64,000 nt of DNA, taken from the NCBI RefSeq assembly GCF_030553305.1, contig NZ_JARRAH010000001.1, positions 1,984,001-2,048,000 of the forward strand, given 5' to 3'. Positions 15,376-24,157 of this stretch are shown piece after piece. The notes under the pieces were generated by a model that had not been told where the DNA came from, ran no database searches, and saw only the letters and a list, made by a program, of their open reading frames with translations. Position 1 is the stretch's first letter. Every line of letters starts with the position of its first letter. The position numbers and the translations under genes were made by a program. This DNA is from Halomarina ordinaria. GTDB lineage: Archaea; Halobacteriota; Halobacteria; Halobacteriales; Haloarculaceae.

Positions 15376-15408
15376 ACCCCGTCTGGAATACGCACGGATA
15401 TGATTACT

Positions 15409-15427
15409 TCGACACGAAACGAAGGGG
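15409..15427 (+). promoter_or_regulatory. ORB-like sequence between pyrE and gfcR
   Basis: TCGACACGAAACGAAGGGG contains the 12-mer GAAACGAAGGGG (15416-15427) shared with the two core origin boxes and the box at 24021. The TCCAGT half is poorly conserved. It is 6 kb from the core origin and overlaps the upstream side of the gfcR promoter. It may be an outlying Orc1 site, an unrelated operator, or chance. Confidence 0.4.
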
Positions 15428-16207: not shown

Positions 16208-17800
16208 TCAGTTGAAGTCCCGAATCGTCAGTTCGAGCGTGTCGAGGTCGACGATGGGTGCGAAGGCGTGGTCGGGGTCGATGTTGACGCTCTTCTGGAA
16301 GTCGGTCTGTTCCTGCCAGCACCCGGAGTTGATGGCGAGGACGTTGTTGTACTTCCCGTAGCCGAGTTTGTGGACGTGGCCGGTGTGGAAGACGTCGGGC
16401 ACGTCGTCGATGACGAGGTAGTCGCGCTCCTCGGGCGCGAGGCGGGTGTGGCCGCCGTACTGCGGCGCGACGTGGCGCTTCTTCAGCAGGTGGTACATCG
16501 CGAGGTGCGGGTCGTCGTAGGAGGCCTTGTGCTCGGGCAGTTCCGCGATGACCTCGTCGAGCGAGACGCCGTGGTACATCAGCACGTTCACGCCCTCGAT
16601 GGTCACTGTCGAGGGATTACCCGTGATGCGGGCGTCGTGGGCGCTCATGATGCCGCGGAGCTCCTCGTCGAAAGCGGGTTGGGGTTCGGCGAGGCGGACG
16701 GCGTCGTGGTTCCCCGGAATCATCACGATCTCCAGGTCGCCGGGCACCTCCTTCAGGTACTCCGAGAACTCCTCGTACTGGTCGTAGATGTCGATGGTCG
16801 AGAGTTCCTCGTCCTGGTTCGGGTAGACGCCGACGCCCTCGACCATGTCGCCGGCGATGAGGAGGTACTCGACGGGGGCGGCCTCCTCGGTGTGGAGCCA
16901 GGAGGTGAAGCGCGACCACGCCTCGCCCATGAACTCCTGGCTGCCGACGTGGACGTCCGAGACGAGCGCCGCCTGGACGTGGCGGTCGGCGGTGTTCGGG
17001 CGGTGCGTCCGGGGAATCTCGGGGAAGTGAAGCGAGTCGACGAAGAGGACGCCGCCGTCGCCCGAGAGCGACCCCTCGACGGCGATGACCTCGTCGAGCA
17101 GGAGTTCGTCCACCAGGTCCGCGATGGGCTTGTCCTTGAGCACGAGACAGGGGAAGACGCCGTTGGTGTCCTCCAGTTCGACGAGCCAGTGTCCGCTGGC
17201 GGTCGAGCGGACGTCGTTTATCATGCCGACGAGCGCCGTCTCCTCGCCGCCGGGCATGTTCGAGACGGCCGTCGTGGGTCGGTGGTTCACGCGGCCGGTG
17301 AGTTTGCGCGAGAGGCGCTCGTAGCGGTCGCGGAAGACGGTCACGAAGTCGCCGTACTCGCCCGTCCCGGTGCTACGACCGGTGATGTCGCCGGCGATGG
17401 CGGCGGCCTGCGGGGTTCGTGGACGGTTCCCAGACCCCCCCGTTTCGACTGGAGCGGCCGTCCCCCCGTCACCTTCGACGGGCGTCGTTCCATCAGAAGT
17501 CGAGGGAGTCGACGGGTCGTCGACGCTCGGCGACGGGTCCGGGGTCGGTGGGGGAGACGCCGCGTCTGCGTCCGGGTCCGACGTGGACGACGGGTCCGGC
17601 GCGGGGTCGCGGGAGTCGAGGACCGACCGGACGTGCGCCGCCGAGAGCTTCAGTGCGTCCTCGGGCACCGTCTCGAGGGCGCGCTCCAGCGCGGCGGCGG
17701 GGTCCGAGGTGCGCGCGAGGAGCGTCACCGCCTCGCGCTCGGCGTTGTAACCCCGGCTCGCGAGTTCGGTGACGATGCGTCGCGGCGTCTCCAGTGGCAC
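16208..17800 (-). CDS. polD1: DNA polymerase D small subunit (DP1)
   Basis: A 530-residue proofreading exonuclease subunit of the archaeal replicative polymerase PolD. The N-terminal domain (about 1-65) is followed by an acidic, proline/serine-rich linker (about 65-145), then an OB-fold region and a calcineurin-like phosphoesterase domain. Its metal motifs are all present: SDVHVG (about 281-286), [25 protein letters not shown] and GHVHKLGYG. Exonuclease activity is therefore likely. The GTG at 17800 ([17 protein letters not shown]) is chosen because the sequence before it is cysteine- and arginine-rich and not family-like. It is divergent from sec11. Confidence 0.94.
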
Positions 17801-17919
17801 AGGTGTCGGTGGGTCACGAGCGCCAAAAGCGTAGCGTCTCGTCGGGCACACGGTCACGGGCGCGGGGAAGTGCCCGGGAGGACAGAAAGTTGAAACCGGG
17901 GCACGCGATAGGAAGTACA

Positions 17920-18681
17920 ATGAACGACCCCGGTGAGGAGGACGACCGACCGGCCGGAGTGGAGTGGATTCGGTGGCTTCTCACCACGGACGACAGCGCC
18001 GTCGTCTACGTCCGCGAGGTACTCAGCAGCGTCGCCGTCGTGCTGGTCGTCGGGTTACTGCTCTTCACCGTCAGCGGGGTCTGGCCGCCGTTGGTCGCTA
18101 TCGAGAGCCCGAGCATGGAGCCGAACATCCAGCAGGGGGACCTCGTGTTCGTGATGGAGGAACACCGCTTCGCCGGCGACGCGGCGACAACCGCGGGCGG
18201 CGCGTCGACGGGCGTCGTCACCAGGGAGACCGGTCAGGGCAACGGCTACACGGAGTTCTCGGAACCGGGCGACGTCATCGTCTTCCGCCCCGACGGGAGC
18301 CAGGGTGCCACCCCCATCATCCACCGGGCGCACCTCTGGGTCGACGAGGGCGAGAACTGGTACGACCGGGCGAACCCCGACTACGTCGGGACCGCCGACG
18401 ACTGCGAGGAACTACCGGCCTGTCCGGCCCCCAACGCCGGCTTCATCACGAAGGGCGACAACCCGGCGACGAACCAGCAGTACGACCAGGTCGCCGGCAT
18501 CGCGCGAGTCCCCGTCCAACCCGACTGGGTCATCGGGACCGCCGAGTTCCGCATCCCGCTGCTCGGCAACATCCGTCTCCTGTTCAGCTACCTGTTCTTC
18601 GGGGGCGACCAGGTGCTGACGACCGTCGTCGCGGCCGGTACCGTCGGGGCGGCCGGCGTGACGCTCGTCGCACGCGACTGA
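17920..18681 (+). CDS. sec11: Signal peptidase I, Sec11 type
   Basis: A 253-residue membrane protease that removes signal peptides from exported proteins. A transmembrane helix at about 35-55 is followed by the catalytic box ESPSMEPN (serine about 65), the Sec11-type histidine in IIHRAHLW (about 135), and the aspartate in TKGDNPATNQQYDQVAGIAR. A second hydrophobic segment lies at the C-terminus (VVAAGTVGAAGVTLVA). A glycine/threonine-rich insert separates the serine and histidine boxes. The ATG at 17920 precedes the acidic tail MNDPGEEDDRPAG. The GC-rich gap 18682-18871 before orc1 contains the ORB-like box at 18800 and no gene. Confidence 0.93.
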   Translation: MNDPGEEDDRPAGVEWIRWLLTTDDSAVVYVREVLSSVAVVLVVGLLLFTVSGVWPPLVAIESPSMEPNIQQGDLVFVMEEHRFAGDAATTAGGASTGVVTRETGQGNGYTEFSEPGDVIVFRPDGSQGATPIIHRAHLWVDEGENWYDRANPDYVGTADDCEELPACPAPNAGFITKGDNPATNQQYDQVAGIARVPVQPDWVIGTAEFRIPLLGNIRLLFSYLFFGGDQVLTTVVAAGTVGAAGVTLVARD

Positions 18682-18799: not shown

Positions 18800-18819
18800 T
18801 TCCAGTGGAACTGAAGGGG
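18800..18819 (+). promoter_or_regulatory. Outlying ORB-like box downstream of orc1
   Basis: TTCCAGTGGAACTGAAGGGG differs from the core box at 21731 (TTCCAGTGGAAACGAAGGGG) at only two positions. It lies in the gap between sec11 and orc1, about 2.7 kb from the core origin, and points the same way as the box at 21731. Confidence 0.65.
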
Positions 18820-18871: not shown

Positions 18872-20695
18872 TCAGTTGTCGTCGAAGCGCGCCTGGACGA
18901 ACGGCTGGGCGTCCTCGACGTCGCCGAGTCGCGAGTCGCTGAGCAGGACCGCCTCCGTCTCCTCCAGGGGGACGGAGAGCCCCATCTCCTTGGTGCGGCC
19001 GTAGCGACCCTTGCTGACGACGACGGCGTTGACGATGCCGAGCATGTCCAGTTCGCTGATGAGGTCGGTGACGCGCCGCTGGGTGAGGACGTCCAGGTCG
19101 ATCTCCGCGCAGAGGCGCTTGTAGATGTTGAACACCTCGCCCGTGTTGATGTTGTGGACGCCGTTGCGTTCGAGGAGGATGACGGCGTAGAGGACGAGCT
19201 TCGACTGCGTCGGGAGGGTCCGGACCACCTCGACGACCCGGTCGAGTTCGATCTTCTCCTGTGCGCGCCGCACGTGCTCCTCGTTGATGTGTTCGGTCCG
19301 GTCGCGCTCGGCGAGTTCGCCCGCCGTCCGGAGCAAGTCGAGCGCGCGCCGGGCGTCGCCGTGTTCCTGCGCGGCGAAGGCGGCGCACAGCGGGATGACG
19401 TCCTCCGAGAGGGCGTCGCCCTTGAACGCGACGTCGGCGCGCGCCTGGAGGATGTCGCGCAACTGGTTGGCGTCGTACGGCGGGAAGACGATTTCCTCCT
19501 CGCCGAGGCTCGACTTCACGCGCGGGTCGAGGAAGTCGGTGAACTTGAGGTCGTTCGAGATACCCATGATGGACACCCGGGAGTTGTCCAGTTCCGAGTT
19601 CATGCGCGAGAGGTTGTACAGCGTGTCGTCGCCGCTCTTCTCGACGAGTTTGTCTATCTCGTCGAGCATGATGACGACGACGCGCTCCTGGTAGTCGACC
19701 GCCTCGAAGAACGTCGAGTAGACGCGGTCGGTCGGCCACCCCGTCATGGGGACGGGTTCGAACTGCTCGCGGTCGGCTTCCAGTTCCTCGATGCGCGCGT
19801 CGAGCGTCGCCCGGTCGGCGAACCCGGAGTCGGCGAGCGCGTCGGGATGGTCGTCGGCGTCCACACGCTCACGGAGGTCGGTCAGTCGGTCGAGGCGGGC
19901 GTCGATGCGCTCGGTGTTCTCCTCGATGAACTTGTTCGCGAGCTGGGCGAGCACGCGGTACTGCGTGTCGGTCACCTCGCAGTTGATGTACTGGACCTCG
20001 CAGGGCACCTCGTATTTCTGGGAGGTGGACTCGAGTTCCTCGCTGACGAACTTCGCGCTCGCGGTCTTGCCGGTCCCCGTCTTCCCGTAGATGAGGATGT
20101 TCGACGGCGTGTCACCGCGCAGCGCGGTGACGAGGATGGTCGCCATGTTGTTGATCTGCTCCTCGCGGTGGGGCAGACGTCGCGGCGTGTAGGAGGGGCG
20201 GAGCACCTCCTTGTTTTCGAAGATGGGTTCGCCGCTCAGGAGGTCGTCGAACAGGCCGGGGGCCGCCTCGTCGGCCCCTTCGGTCAGCGGCGGGTCCGAG
20301 AGGGAACCCGTGCCGGCACCGTCCGTGTCGACGGTACTCGCGTCGACGGTACTCGCGTCGATGCTGTCGGCGGTGGGCACGTCGCCCGTGGTCGTCCCGG
20401 AGGCGGTCGGTTCGTCGACTGCCGGTTCGTCGACTGCCGGTTCGTCGGTGGTCGGTTCATCGGTGGGCGCCCCGGCCGCGGTCGGGTCGGTCGGCCCGGT
20501 CCCTGCCTCGGCCTCGTTCCCGGGGTCGTCGGCAGGTACGGTCGTATCGACATCGTCGGCCACGGCTTCGGTGTCGGTCTCGGTCGTCGAGTCGACATCG
20601 GCGTCCCGGTCGGTCGCGGCGTCCGCCTCGGCGTCCGTGTCTACGTCGTCCGGCGCACCGTCCGCCTGCGGTCGGTCTGAGTGGTCGTCGGTCAT
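18872..20695 (-). CDS. orc1: Orc1/Cdc6 replication initiator
   Basis: A 607-residue AAA+ initiator that binds ORBs and opens the origin. An acidic N-terminal extension of about 160 residues is low-complexity and contains short tandem repeats (EPAVDEPAVDEP, DASTVDASTVD). The AAA+ core then shows Walker A YGKTGTGKTAS (about 203-213), Walker B VVIMLDEIDKL (about 340-350), and sensor regions ISNDLKFTDFLDPRV and HGDARRALDLLRTAGE. The C-terminal winged helix (about 500-607, with RRVTDLISELDMLGIVNAVV) binds DNA. It is read away from the origin it presumably controls. An ORB-like sequence lies 25 nt upstream of the start. Confidence 0.96.
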   Translation of the reverse strand: MTDDHSDRPQADGAPDDVDTDAEADAATDRDADVDSTTETDTEAVADDVDTTVPADDPGNEAEAGTGPTDPTAAGAPTDEPTTDEPAVDEPAVDEPTASGTTTGDVPTADSIDASTVDASTVDTDGAGTGSLSDPPLTEGADEAAPGLFDDLLSGEPIFENKEVLRPSYTPRRLPHREEQINNMATILVTALRGDTPSNILIYGKTGTGKTASAKFVSEELESTSQKYEVPCEVQYINCEVTDTQYRVLAQLANKFIEENTERIDARLDRLTDLRERVDADDHPDALADSGFADRATLDARIEELEADREQFEPVPMTGWPTDRVYSTFFEAVDYQERVVVIMLDEIDKLVEKSGDDTLYNLSRMNSELDNSRVSIMGISNDLKFTDFLDPRVKSSLGEEEIVFPPYDANQLRDILQARADVAFKGDALSEDVIPLCAAFAAQEHGDARRALDLLRTAGELAERDRTEHINEEHVRRAQEKIELDRVVEVVRTLPTQSKLVLYAVILLERNGVHNINTGEVFNIYKRLCAEIDLDVLTQRRVTDLISELDMLGIVNAVVVSKGRYGRTKEMGLSVPLEETEAVLLSDSRLGDVEDAQPFVQARFDDN

Positions 20696-20720: not shown

Positions 20721-20740
20721 CCCCATGGTTTCGGGTGGAG
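20721..20740 (-). promoter_or_regulatory. ORB-like box just upstream of orc1
   Basis: Plus strand CCCCATGGTTTCGGGTGGAG matches CCCCTTCGTTTCCGGTGGAA (the core box at 21465) at 16 of 20 positions. It lies 26-45 nt before the orc1 ATG, where an initiator could regulate its own gene. A possible orc1 TATA element (GCTTAATTA, reverse strand, about 20852-20861) is much further upstream and would give a long leader. Confidence 0.55.
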
Positions 20741-21290: not shown

Positions 21291-21464
21291 ATGTACCGAC
21301 GAATCAGCGACCCCTGCTAGAGAACAAACGACAGCCCCGTTTCGACTCGAACGGATTCCAGGTTCGAAAAGGTCGCACTTATCCGTCGTTTTCGACGGGT
21401 AGCACTCTTCAGTCGAGAGGATCGGTCATAGATGGCGGTCGGCGCGTCGGTCGTTACCCCCCAT

Positions 21465-21484
21465 CCCCTTCGTTTCCGGTGGAA
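21465..21484 (-). promoter_or_regulatory. Core origin recognition box, left
   Basis: Reverse strand TTCCACCGGAAACGAAGGGG, followed by a G-rich extension (ATGGGGGG). It is inverted relative to the box at 21731. Orc1/Cdc6 is known to bind such boxes, with the G-rich end giving polarity. Confidence 0.85.
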
Positions 21485-21529
21485 GCGATACAAGAGGAGG
21501 GGGCGGTGAGTGATGAGACGGAGGACTAG

Positions 21530-21680
21530 AAGGGACGGAAACAACTAAGTAACCTTCCATACAACCAGACCCGTAGTAGGAAGAGATAGCCATTCATTAT
21601 CTACTTTCTAGACTAGTCTAGGTGAACGTTTCCCGTCGTTTCTAGTTCTAGTGACTTTTTCGCGTTCTCTCGACAGTTTT
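21530..21680. other. Low-GC stretch between the core ORBs, candidate unwinding element
   Basis: This segment is clearly richer in A/T than its surroundings, for example AACAACTAAGTAACC at 21540-21554, CATTCATTATCTACTTTC at 21591-21608, and a T-run at 21655-21660. It includes five CTAG sites at 21608-21651. Its place between two inward-facing ORBs is the usual layout of a haloarchaeal duplex unwinding element. Confidence 0.7.
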
Positions 21681-21730
21681 CCGTCACGTCTGCCTACCGA
21701 CGACCGACCCCTACCCACCCCTTCGGACCG

Positions 21731-21750
21731 TTCCAGTGGAAACGAAGGGG
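21731..21750 (+). promoter_or_regulatory. Core origin recognition box, right
   Basis: TTCCAGTGGAAACGAAGGGG followed by TGGGGGTGT. It mirrors the left box, including the G-rich extension, with 246 bp between the two. Confidence 0.88.
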
Positions 21751-22162
21751 TGGGGGTGTCGGAGCGGTGCGTGATAACACGAGTGGGAGATAGTGCCTCC
21801 GGTAGGAGTGTATCGATTCTCGATATAGCACACCTCCGTCGAACGCGACACCCGTTCACCCCGTCTGAACACAGGTGTTGTTCGTCGCTACCGCGGCTCC
21901 GCCTACACTTCGACTCCACCGCCCGGTCCGTGTGTAGAATTGTCGCCCGAGCGCCGGTCGAGGGCTTCGACGGTTGTCGTCGGGACAGCGAGGTGACGAG
22001 GTGGTGTGCCATCAGAGGCATTCCACACGAAGGCGGGGGGTCCCGACACGGAGGCGACGTCGACTGCACCTCGTCGACCGCACCTCGCAGAGACGCGTGT
22101 CGCCCGTAGAACTCGCGTACGCGCGAACGATTCCCAGTTACTTGATAGGTGTCTGACGCACC

Positions 22163-22234: not shown

Positions 22235-22882
22235 ATGGGACTGCTCACCGACATCAGGGATAGCATCTCGCGAGTCACGACGCGATTCTTCGAGGGGCCG
22301 AACCAGGAGCCGAAACGCATCGGTATCTACGGCCCACCGAACGCCGGCAAGACGACGCTCGCGAACCGCATCGCACGCGACTGGACGGGCGACGCCGTCG
22401 GTCCGGAGAGTCACGTACCGCACGAGACACGTCGAGCGCGACGCAAGGAGAACGTCGAGATACAGCGCAACGGTCACTCCGTCACCATCGACATCGTCGA
22501 CACGCCCGGCGTGACGACGAAAGTCGACTACAAGGAGTTCCTCGAACACGACATCGAGAAGGACGACGCGGTGCGCCGCTCCCGGGAGGCGACGGAGGGC
22601 GTCGCCGAGGCGATGCACTGGCTCCGGGAGGACGTCGACGGCGTCATCTACGTGCTCGACAGCGCAGAGGACCCGTTCACGCAGGTCAACACGATGCTCA
22701 TCGGCATCATCGAGAGTCGCGACCTGCCCGTGCTCATCTTCGCCAACAAGATCGACCTGGACGAATCGAGCGTCCAGCGTATCTCGAACGCGTTCCCACA
22801 ACACGAGACGGTTCCGCTCTCGGCGCTCGAGGGCGAGAACATGGACGAGGTCTACGACAAGATCGCGGAGTACTTCGCCTGA
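22235..22882 (+). CDS. oapA: Origin-associated GTP-binding protein OapA
   Basis: A 215-residue small GTPase. P-loop RIGIYGPPNAGKTTLANRIA (about 28-47), switch/G3 DIVDTPGV, G4 FANKIDLDES and a G5-like PLSALEGENMDEV are all present. It therefore probably binds and hydrolyses GTP. It is the first gene of a three-gene operon beside the main origin, an arrangement reported for Haloferax, where the genes were named oapABC for origin-associated proteins. The family is Era/Der-like by motif. Its role in replication is not established. Confidence 0.87.
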   Translation: MGLLTDIRDSISRVTTRFFEGPNQEPKRIGIYGPPNAGKTTLANRIARDWTGDAVGPESHVPHETRRARRKENVEIQRNGHSVTIDIVDTPGVTTKVDYKEFLEHDIEKDDAVRRSREATEGVAEAMHWLREDVDGVIYVLDSAEDPFTQVNTMLIGIIESRDLPVLIFANKIDLDESSVQRISNAFPQHETVPLSALEGENMDEVYDKIAEYFA

Positions 22883-22886
22883 GACC

Positions 22887-23276
22887 ATGCCGGAATACAC
22901 CACCTCCGACGGCGAGGGCGTCCAGATCGACCTCATCAGCGGCGAGCGCATGTCGAACCTCCGTACGATGGAGAAGATTCGACTCATCCTCGACGGCGTC
23001 CACAAGGGGAACATCGTCATCCTCGAGGACGGCCTCTCGCCGGACGAGGAGTCGAAGCTCATCGAGGTGACGATGAACGAGATCAGCCCCGACGAGTTCA
23101 CGGGCATCGAGATAGAGACGTACCCCCGCCCGAGTCGAAACGAGGGAGGGTTCCTCGGTCGCCTGATGGGCCGCGACACGGACGACAACAAGCTCACCGT
23201 CATCGGCCCCGCGAACCGAATCGAGACGCTCCACAAGGACGAGAACCTCATCAGCGCGCTCGTCACCCGGAAATAA
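22887..23276 (+). CDS. oapB: Origin-associated protein OapB (DUF2073)
   Basis: A 129-residue protein of the DUF2073 family, starting MPEYTTSDGEGVQIDLISGE. Recognisable stretches are LILDGVHKGNIVILEDGLSP, LIEVTMNEISPDEFTGIEIE and KLTVIGPANRIETLHKDEN. No catalytic residues are evident. It begins 4 nt after the oapA stop, and its TAA overlaps the oapC ATG by one base, so the three are cotranslated. The assignment rests on the conserved neighbourhood and sequence type. Confidence 0.85.
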   Translation: MPEYTTSDGEGVQIDLISGERMSNLRTMEKIRLILDGVHKGNIVILEDGLSPDEESKLIEVTMNEISPDEFTGIEIETYPRPSRNEGGFLGRLMGRDTDDNKLTVIGPANRIETLHKDENLISALVTRK

Positions 23277-23959
23277 TGCCCCACCAGTGTACCGAGTGCG
23301 GACACGTGTTCGCCGACGGTTCGAAGGAGATGCTCTCGGGCTGTCCGGAGTGCGGCGGGACGAAGTTCCAGTTCCACCCGAAGGACGCCCCCATCCCCGA
23401 GACCCCACCGGCCGACGCCGCCCCGCCCGACCGCGAGGACGGCGGGGTCGCGGAGACGGTCGGCCGGGCCACCACGACCGTCCGTGGCTGGGTACACGGT
23501 GACACGGATCCGGTGACGTCGAGTGGAACCGGAACCGTCGACCGGGAGCGGGCACAGTCGGACGCCGGGGTCGACGAGGCGGTGGACGCTCCCCGGTCGG
23601 ACGTCGCCGCCGAGAGCGACCCGAGCGCCGACCCGGACCGGGAGGACGCCGCCCAGGCGTCCGCGCGCCGGGACGTCGCCTCGCCCGACGAACTCCCCGA
23701 CCCGCCCGAACAGGACGCCCCCGCCGACGGTCGGGTCGTACGCGAACCCACCGGCGAGCGTCCGGACCTCTCACAACTTCGCGAGGAACTCAACGAGCAG
23801 TTCGAGAGCATCAAGATACTCGAACCCGGCCAGTACGAACTCAACCTGATGGAACTGTACGACCGCGAGGAGTACATCATCGCCCTCCAGGAGAACGGGC
23901 GCTACGTCATCCAGATGCCCGAGAACTGGATCGGTCGCGACCCCGACGAGGACGACTGA
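23276..23959 (+). CDS. oapC: Origin-associated zinc-ribbon protein OapC
   Basis: A 227-residue protein with an N-terminal zinc ribbon, CTECGHVFADG and GCPECGGTKFQF (four cysteines, residues about 4-30). A long acidic, low-complexity linker (about 40-155) follows. The conserved C-terminal domain (about 160-227) contains LREELNEQFESIKILEPGQY and NLMELYDREEYIIALQENGR. The linker is typical of halophile surface chemistry. It is the third gene of the oap operon. The zinc ribbon suggests nucleic acid or protein contacts. Confidence 0.87.
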   Translation: MPHQCTECGHVFADGSKEMLSGCPECGGTKFQFHPKDAPIPETPPADAAPPDREDGGVAETVGRATTTVRGWVHGDTDPVTSSGTGTVDRERAQSDAGVDEAVDAPRSDVAAESDPSADPDREDAAQASARRDVASPDELPDPPEQDAPADGRVVREPTGERPDLSQLREELNEQFESIKILEPGQYELNLMELYDREEYIIALQENGRYVIQMPENWIGRDPDEDD

Positions 23960-24020: not shown

Positions 24021-24040
24021 CTCCAGTCGAAACGAAGGGG
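24021..24040 (+). promoter_or_regulatory. Outlying ORB-like box after oapC
   Basis: CTCCAGTCGAAACGAAGGGG matches the core box at 21731 at 18 of 20 positions and keeps the full GAAACGAAGGGG block. It is in the oapC downstream gap (23960-24157), about 2.3 kb from the core origin and in the same orientation as the right core box. Confidence 0.7.
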
Positions 24041-24157
24041 TTTCACCGAGTGAAAACGTCGCGGTTCCGTCCGATACTCTTCCCCCGGCGGAGCTCGGAC
24101 CGAGAACGCCGGACGAAACCCAATAGAACTTAACCCGTCGTGGTCGAACCTGCTGGT

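Follow-up and report, generated by a model that had tools for sequence, protein, structure and literature searches.

A haloarchaeal oriC1 and the ORBs beyond it, at the orc1 start codon and inside the DP1 gene

The oriC1 locus of Halomarina ordinaria

The window analysed here is a 64,000-nt stretch of the Halomarina ordinaria genome (3.61 Mb in six contigs), corresponding to C1:1984001-2048000 on the 2.78-Mb contig C1. Its minus strand carries orc1 (18872..20695), an oriC1-type initiator gene recognized by the NF001625 equivalog profile (651.8 bits, cut-off 501) and by Cdc6_C and AAA domains. The plus strand carries oapA (22235..22882), oapB (22887..23276; PF09846) and oapC (23276..23959; PF09845). 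The first-pass annotation had described an origin flanked by orc1 and oapABC (22235-23959), and the profile matches, by which oapA was also identified, bear this out. The oap genes are present, but their name is outdated: OapA, which 114 of 117 genomes from the order encode, is now reported as ArvA, a GTPase that in Haloferax volcanii drives the formation of extracellular vesicles (PMC10927574), so that the three genes (arvA, arvB and arvC) can be taken as neighbours of the origin for which a role in replication is not required.

Past orc1 lie a signal-peptidase-like gene and then the gene for DP1, the small subunit of PolD (16208..17920, minus strand; PF04042), a gene order common to most relatives. 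Relatives align to the DP1 frame from about residue 28-41 onward, and the true start codon, which is uncertain, probably lies somewhat inside this frame. The predicted structure of DP1 has a mean pLDDT of 35 and was left out of the argument. Orc1 itself has a long acidic N-terminal extension and an insertion of ~48 residues relative to TIGR02928 (window 19768-19912); the insertion looks haloarchaeal rather than genome-specific, because no gap of at least 8 residues appears there in the seven relatives compared.

Between orc1 and oapA, two 20-mers face inward across 246 bp, TTCCACCGGAAACGAAGGGG on the minus strand (21465..21484) and TTCCAGTGGAAACGAAGGGG on the plus strand (21731..21750). Both are exactly as the first-pass annotation had given them, and both match the ORB sequence TTCCANNGGAAACGAAGGGG without mismatch. 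The G-rich extensions claimed on their outer sides are also present: the extended G-string of the left box occupies 21457..21464 on the minus strand (CCCCCC at 21457-21462 on the plus strand), and that of the right box, TGGGGGTG, occupies 21751..21758 on the plus strand (GGGGG from 21752). The stretch between the boxes (21485..21730), presumed to be the unwinding region, is A/T-rich as claimed, with a GC content of 0.512 vs 0.695 for the window and a 60-bp minimum of 0.38 at 21572. Taken over every 246-bp stretch of the window, a GC content of 0.512 or less occurs in only 0.2%, and the lowest one begins at 21451. Just inside the left box lies a G-rich tract (21494..21510, plus strand), an imperfect counterpart of the enhancer repeat in Haloarcula hispanica oriC1, and just inside the right box a C-rich tract, CCCCTACCCACCCC (21708..21721, plus strand), an inner tract that is conserved in relatives; the two contain no perfect repeat. 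A chance origin of the core boxes is ruled out, since the window contains five ORB matches at ≤3 mismatches against a shuffle mean of 0.04, and the whole 3.61-Mb genome contains only seven, five of which fall within a 9-kb span at the origin.

The core pair was compared across 81 loci, comprising 80 named haloarchaeal loci and the window (1.56 Mb), and is conserved in 78 of them. Measured between their inner ends, the boxes are 85-466 bp apart (median 235 bp), and the median GC content between them is 0.515 vs 0.655 for the loci. The core boxes share the consensus TTCCAc.cGAAACGAAGGGGTGGGGGgg, on whose inner side lies a C-rich tract, and an extended G-string (at least 5 G in the next 8 bases) accompanies 140 of 156 core boxes. 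In Haloarcula hispanica oriC1, loss of either ORB is reported to impair plasmid replication, alteration of either G-string to abolish it, and the inner G-rich repeat to act as an enhancer (PMC3936714).

The first-pass annotation had named a GC-skew profile as a check on the origin. We sampled 43 stretches of 20 kb, 40 from C1 and three from the window, and the cumulative GC skew of this sample has a single peak at the window (~1.98-2.006 Mb) and a trough at 0.56-0.63 Mb, about half of C1 away. The inflection is thus found at the site, and the assignment stands. The mean skew is +0.0153 in the left half of sampled C1 and -0.0122 in the right half; being positive to the left of the origin and negative to the right, it indicates that the leading strand is C-rich. 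In bacteria the sign of the skew is usually the opposite.

Because its core has the anatomy published for Haloarcula hispanica oriC1, the region is a haloarchaeal oriC1, the main chromosomal origin, and of a well-characterised type. The same identification in the first-pass annotation is supported by the sequence hallmarks of oriC1, by the conservation of the core pair and by the skew peak. Its label of core origin is correct but narrow, since the ORB system reaches well past 21465-21750. The inner G/C-rich tracts, the satellites at 15408, 18800, 20721 and 24021 and a pair inside DP1 at 17435/17488 had all been overlooked.

Elsewhere in this genome, at least 13 orc1/cdc6-type genes score above the family cut-off and are spread over all six contigs. 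Four are on C1, one of them (C1:558810-559895) close to the skew trough, and the other orc/cdc6 genes of C1 could serve further origins. A near-perfect ORB (one mismatch) is located 62 kb from the origin at C1:2068181-2068200, in a short intergenic stretch beside an apparent tRNA gene.

ORBs outside the core origin

Three satellite ORBs in the window, each on the plus strand with two mismatches, are intergenic as judged from the ORFs. They are located upstream of a phosphoribosyltransferase gene (15408..15427, ORB-like), between the signal-peptidase-like gene and orc1 (18800..18819), and 3′ of oapC (24021..24040). Directly after the last of these, an inverted repeat, TTTCACcgaGTGAAA, spans window 24040-24058 and is possibly a terminator or a regulator site.

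A 17-base pattern with ≤2 mismatches was then counted over the 81 loci. It matched 150 times in the core and 50 times inside DP1; 14 further matches fell between the core boxes, six between the core and oapA, 16 just 3′ of oapC (in 14 loci) and 76 elsewhere. Between orc1 and the core there were 56 matches on the minus strand and three on the plus strand. We rejected a chance origin of the satellites, as the 76 matches elsewhere in 1.56 Mb compare with a total of 0-1 matches in five Markov simulations. In 11 Haloferax loci (L068, L073, L076, L081-L083, L087, L094, L105, L106 and L114), almost the same position, ~+4.0 to +4.3 kb relative to the start of oapA, is occupied by a plus-strand ORB.

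One recurrent minus-strand position is the start of orc1. At 76 loci we looked for a minus-strand ORB (≤4/17 mismatches) no more than 60 bp upstream of an in-frame orc1 ATG, and 69 have one; for 64 of the 69, the distance between its start and the ATG is 4-16 bp. None of these 69 boxes carries an extended G-string. The counterpart in the window is a degenerate ORB, CTCCACCCGAAACCATGGGG (20721..20740, minus strand; 3/17 mismatches), ~25 bp before the ATG of orc1 and a candidate operator. The position of the orc1-start ORB in these sequences is compatible with an autorepression operator.

On a larger scale, 74 one-mismatch ORBs were counted in 17 genomes, of which 27 lie within 2 kb of oapA and 10 beyond 150 kb. 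At 2-15 kb there are 15 vs 0.6 expected and at 15-150 kb 22 vs 6.2 expected, the expectations being approximate because some genome lengths were rounded or estimated. One of 18 genomes (G003), whose origin is not beside oapA, was omitted from this count and its three matches dropped; for the Salinarchaeum genome (G038) distances were taken from oapA, though the origin is ~33 kb off. As 64 of the 74 fall within 150 kb of oapA, the satellites might instead form a centromere-like zone for segregation or origin positioning, just as parS sites surround bacterial origins. However, the two recurrent satellites suggest gene control, at the orc1 start codon, or a fixed dimer geometry, in DP1, and no link between a partition protein and ORBs was found in the parts of the literature covered, so that we consider such a zone unlikely.

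An inverted ORB pair inside the DP1 gene

DP1 was matched in 61 loci, and 51 of these contain an inward-facing ORB pair spaced exactly 56 bp start to start, with 36 bp separating the boxes; the runner-up spacing occurs in six loci of 61. The pair lies 191 to 416 bp away from where the DP1 match ends on its N-terminal side. In rows picked by the ORB pattern, a choice that biases the box-identity, peptide, codon and covariation analyses alike towards agreement, box identity between loci is 76-78%, vs 35-37% for the bases compared between and beside the boxes. The spacing count (51/61), the recoding of DP1 genes and the genome counts (186/392) described below are less exposed to this bias.

The genome under study carries the pair in a weaker form. 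One ORB-like box (17435..17454, minus strand) has 1/14 mismatches and the second (17488..17507, plus strand) 3/14, and their spacing of 53 bp is one codon under the usual 56. From its sequence, this pair looks like an eroding copy.

To describe the distribution of the pair, a 28-base pair pattern with ≤3 mismatches was searched in 392 Halobacteriales genomes. It was found in 186 of the 392 genomes and in 51 of 95 genera, at one site per genome in 184 and at two in the other two; the reversed-pattern control matched in 0/392 Halobacteriales genomes. All 30 of the sites that were fetched are inside DP1. By a hand count, ~76 of 93 genomes in the family of the window have the pair. Three of five genomes in its genus have it, and Halomarina ordinaria is among the two without. 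In 10 DP1 genes from genomes failing the 3-mismatch test, five have a 56-bp partner at ≤5 mismatches. A further 17 DP1 genes were chosen because no DP1 had turned up near orc1 or because the pair or orc1 was missing: nine have the 56-bp pair, in four (Halobellus) the spacing is 68 bp and in Salinarchaeum 53 bp, and three have no pair. The pair is weak in Haloferax, and a single good DP1 box is retained in the four Halorubrum-like genomes examined (genus g11). Since the pair appears eroded here, is weak in Haloferax and is reduced to one box in the Halorubrum-like genomes, it cannot be essential for oriC1.

None of 20 DP1 regions from non-haloarchaeal Halobacteriota carries the 56-bp pair (0/20), though orc1 was detected near DP1 in 12 of them. 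We therefore rejected the idea that the pair is ancestral to all Halobacteriota; on these sequences it looks to be of haloarchaeal origin. A dependence on adjacency to orc1 was also rejected, as Natronomonas and Halorarius genomes with DP1 elsewhere retain the 56-bp pair, and Salinarchaeum, whose orc1 has moved, retains a 53-bp pair. In Salinarchaeum laminariae, orc1 is found together with an inverted ORB pair ~33 kb from oapABC, and DP1 with its 53-bp box pair is still beside oapABC.

Archaeal origins have inverted ORBs that face inward as their core layout, and the DP1 pair might accordingly be read as a second, minor or dormant origin. This is quite unlikely: the boxes are separated by just 36 variable bases, among which no low-GC stretch was noted, and the extended G-string, which is essential at Haloarcula hispanica oriC1, is missing from 95 of 102 DP1 boxes and present in seven. 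Because the boxes are too close and G-string-poor, we judge the pair to be probably unable to load MCM.

An inverted repeat within a coding sequence could also act in the mRNA, as a hairpin in the DP1 transcript that controls, for example, translation or decay. The arms are often near-complementary, and at positions 7 and 8 they match above independence (25 vs 20.6 and 34 vs 26.6). Compensatory changes between the arms, which such a hairpin should leave, are not in excess apart from this modest signal at 7 and 8, and at the variable positions 1, 6, 14, 15 and 16 pairing is not above that of independent arms. Moreover, the loop length is fixed, for which a hairpin has no need, and each arm alone matches the ORB consensus. 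We regard a hairpin as very unlikely.

The codons of the boxes were examined in 50 pair rows; the remaining one of the 51 was left out because the automatic frame call had assigned it a different frame. Rare codons are fixed: GTT in 39/39 (2.6 expected), ACT in 33/33 (2.1 expected), GGA in 33/33 (2.3 expected) and CCA in 42/43 (3.2 expected), along with GAA in 50/50, and this fixation also holds at one row per genus (21 genera). Wobble positions in the two boxes are conserved at 0.78 and 0.84 vs 0.69 and 0.73 for first codon positions. When the same DP1 genes were recoded synonymously in 20 rounds, the pair was found in a mean of 7.9 of 61 and a maximum of 14. That selection acts on the linker peptides DPSVSTGT ... 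TPVETKGS, with the likeness to ORBs following from codon use, is hardly credible and was rejected: all but one of the 51 pairs are in the same frame and S and E are invariant in 50/50, yet rare codons are fixed even at one row per genus, wobble positions are conserved above first positions, most pairs are lost on recoding, and the arms are the same DNA inverted while encoding different peptides. As far as sequence comparison among the relatives can establish it, the DP1 boxes are shown to be under selection at the DNA level and not at the protein level.

A proposed ORB circuit and its known counterparts

Taken as a whole, the locus is very probably an oriC1, accompanied by non-origin ORBs that we read as putative docking sites for Orc1, which would regulate without initiating. 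At the core, Orc1 would contact both inward-facing ORBs with its winged-helix domain and its AAA+ domain, the latter reading the G-strings, and would recruit MCM towards the low-GC stretch between them, from which two forks would depart; this loading mechanism is inferred from other archaea. The presence of an extended G-string would separate the two classes of site, such that core boxes with it start replication and boxes without it regulate. Orc1 on the orc1-start box would most likely repress its own gene.

For the DP1 pair, the fixed spacing suggests that two Orc1 molecules are held in a set geometry, and they would most likely dock in this way on the inverted boxes. Binding of Orc1 to the pair is likely in our judgement. 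A regulatory effect of the pair is a more tentative proposal, about which we are nearly evenly divided. The pair could be a non-initiating sink for the initiator that is copied soon after oriC1 fires, and perhaps also a roadblock to DP1 transcription, tying PolD synthesis to free Orc1. We put forward, with the same reserve, that the single-copy intragenic 56-bp element and the orc1 operator may together form a feedback circuit in which initiator availability is set and polymerase synthesis is coupled to initiation.

The origin itself is one more oriC1, and the wider ORB system points to a little-explored layer of replication control. It matters as little is known of how archaea limit initiation at a conserved origin. 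The DP1 pair and the orc1-start box would be precise sites that can be destroyed, the former synonymously, in the genetically tractable Haloarcula hispanica. The main earlier ORB survey covered intergenic regions next to orc/cdc6 genes (PMC3528665), and searches confined to intergenic regions miss conserved sites. In the open-licence PMC literature, as far as its main texts were covered, we came across nothing on ORBs within DP1 or next to the start codon of orc1. The core is known in kind, and the DP1 pair and the orc1-start box are apparently unreported, though their novelty is not proven.

The closest known system is described for Haloarcula hispanica. Its oriC1-cdc6A shares with the present locus the inverted ORBs, the extended G-strings, the AT-rich middle, the neighbouring oriC1-type cdc6 gene and the G-rich tracts just inside the boxes; the inner repeat is perfect there and imperfect here, and the excerpts of that account make no reference to ORBs within DP1 or beside the start codon of orc1 (PMC3936714). 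The same source reports oriC2D, downstream of cdc6E, with 11 ORBs in one 722-bp intergenic region; as here, these are ORBs outside an origin, and they are thought to titrate the cognate initiator and so limit initiation (PMC3936714). Unlike oriC2D, which belongs to another initiator, the DP1 site is a single pair of fixed spacing within a polymerase frame and matches the oriC1 box.

A precedent for an archaeal Orc1-type protein binding its own promoter is Orc1-2 of Saccharolobus islandicus, which is reported as a non-initiator recognizing an ANTTTC motif, whereas an initiator and ORBs are proposed here (PMC9738581). In E. coli, datA and the autoregulation of dnaA similarly place initiator sites off the origin, close to it or in the initiator's own promoter, where they set its availability (PMC3936714, PMC4010727). 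That is a DnaA system without sequence relationship to ours, and for the haloarchaeal sites we infer the function. DARS is likewise an E. coli initiator-binding site outside the origin with which the comparison can be made. In Vibrio cholerae, crtS is reportedly a non-origin chromosomal site that acts on the control of initiation, but the proteins are unrelated and crtS acts on the second chromosome. The proposed haloarchaeal circuit, duplicated soon after oriC1 in most genomes, would be a functional counterpart of datA, DARS or crtS.
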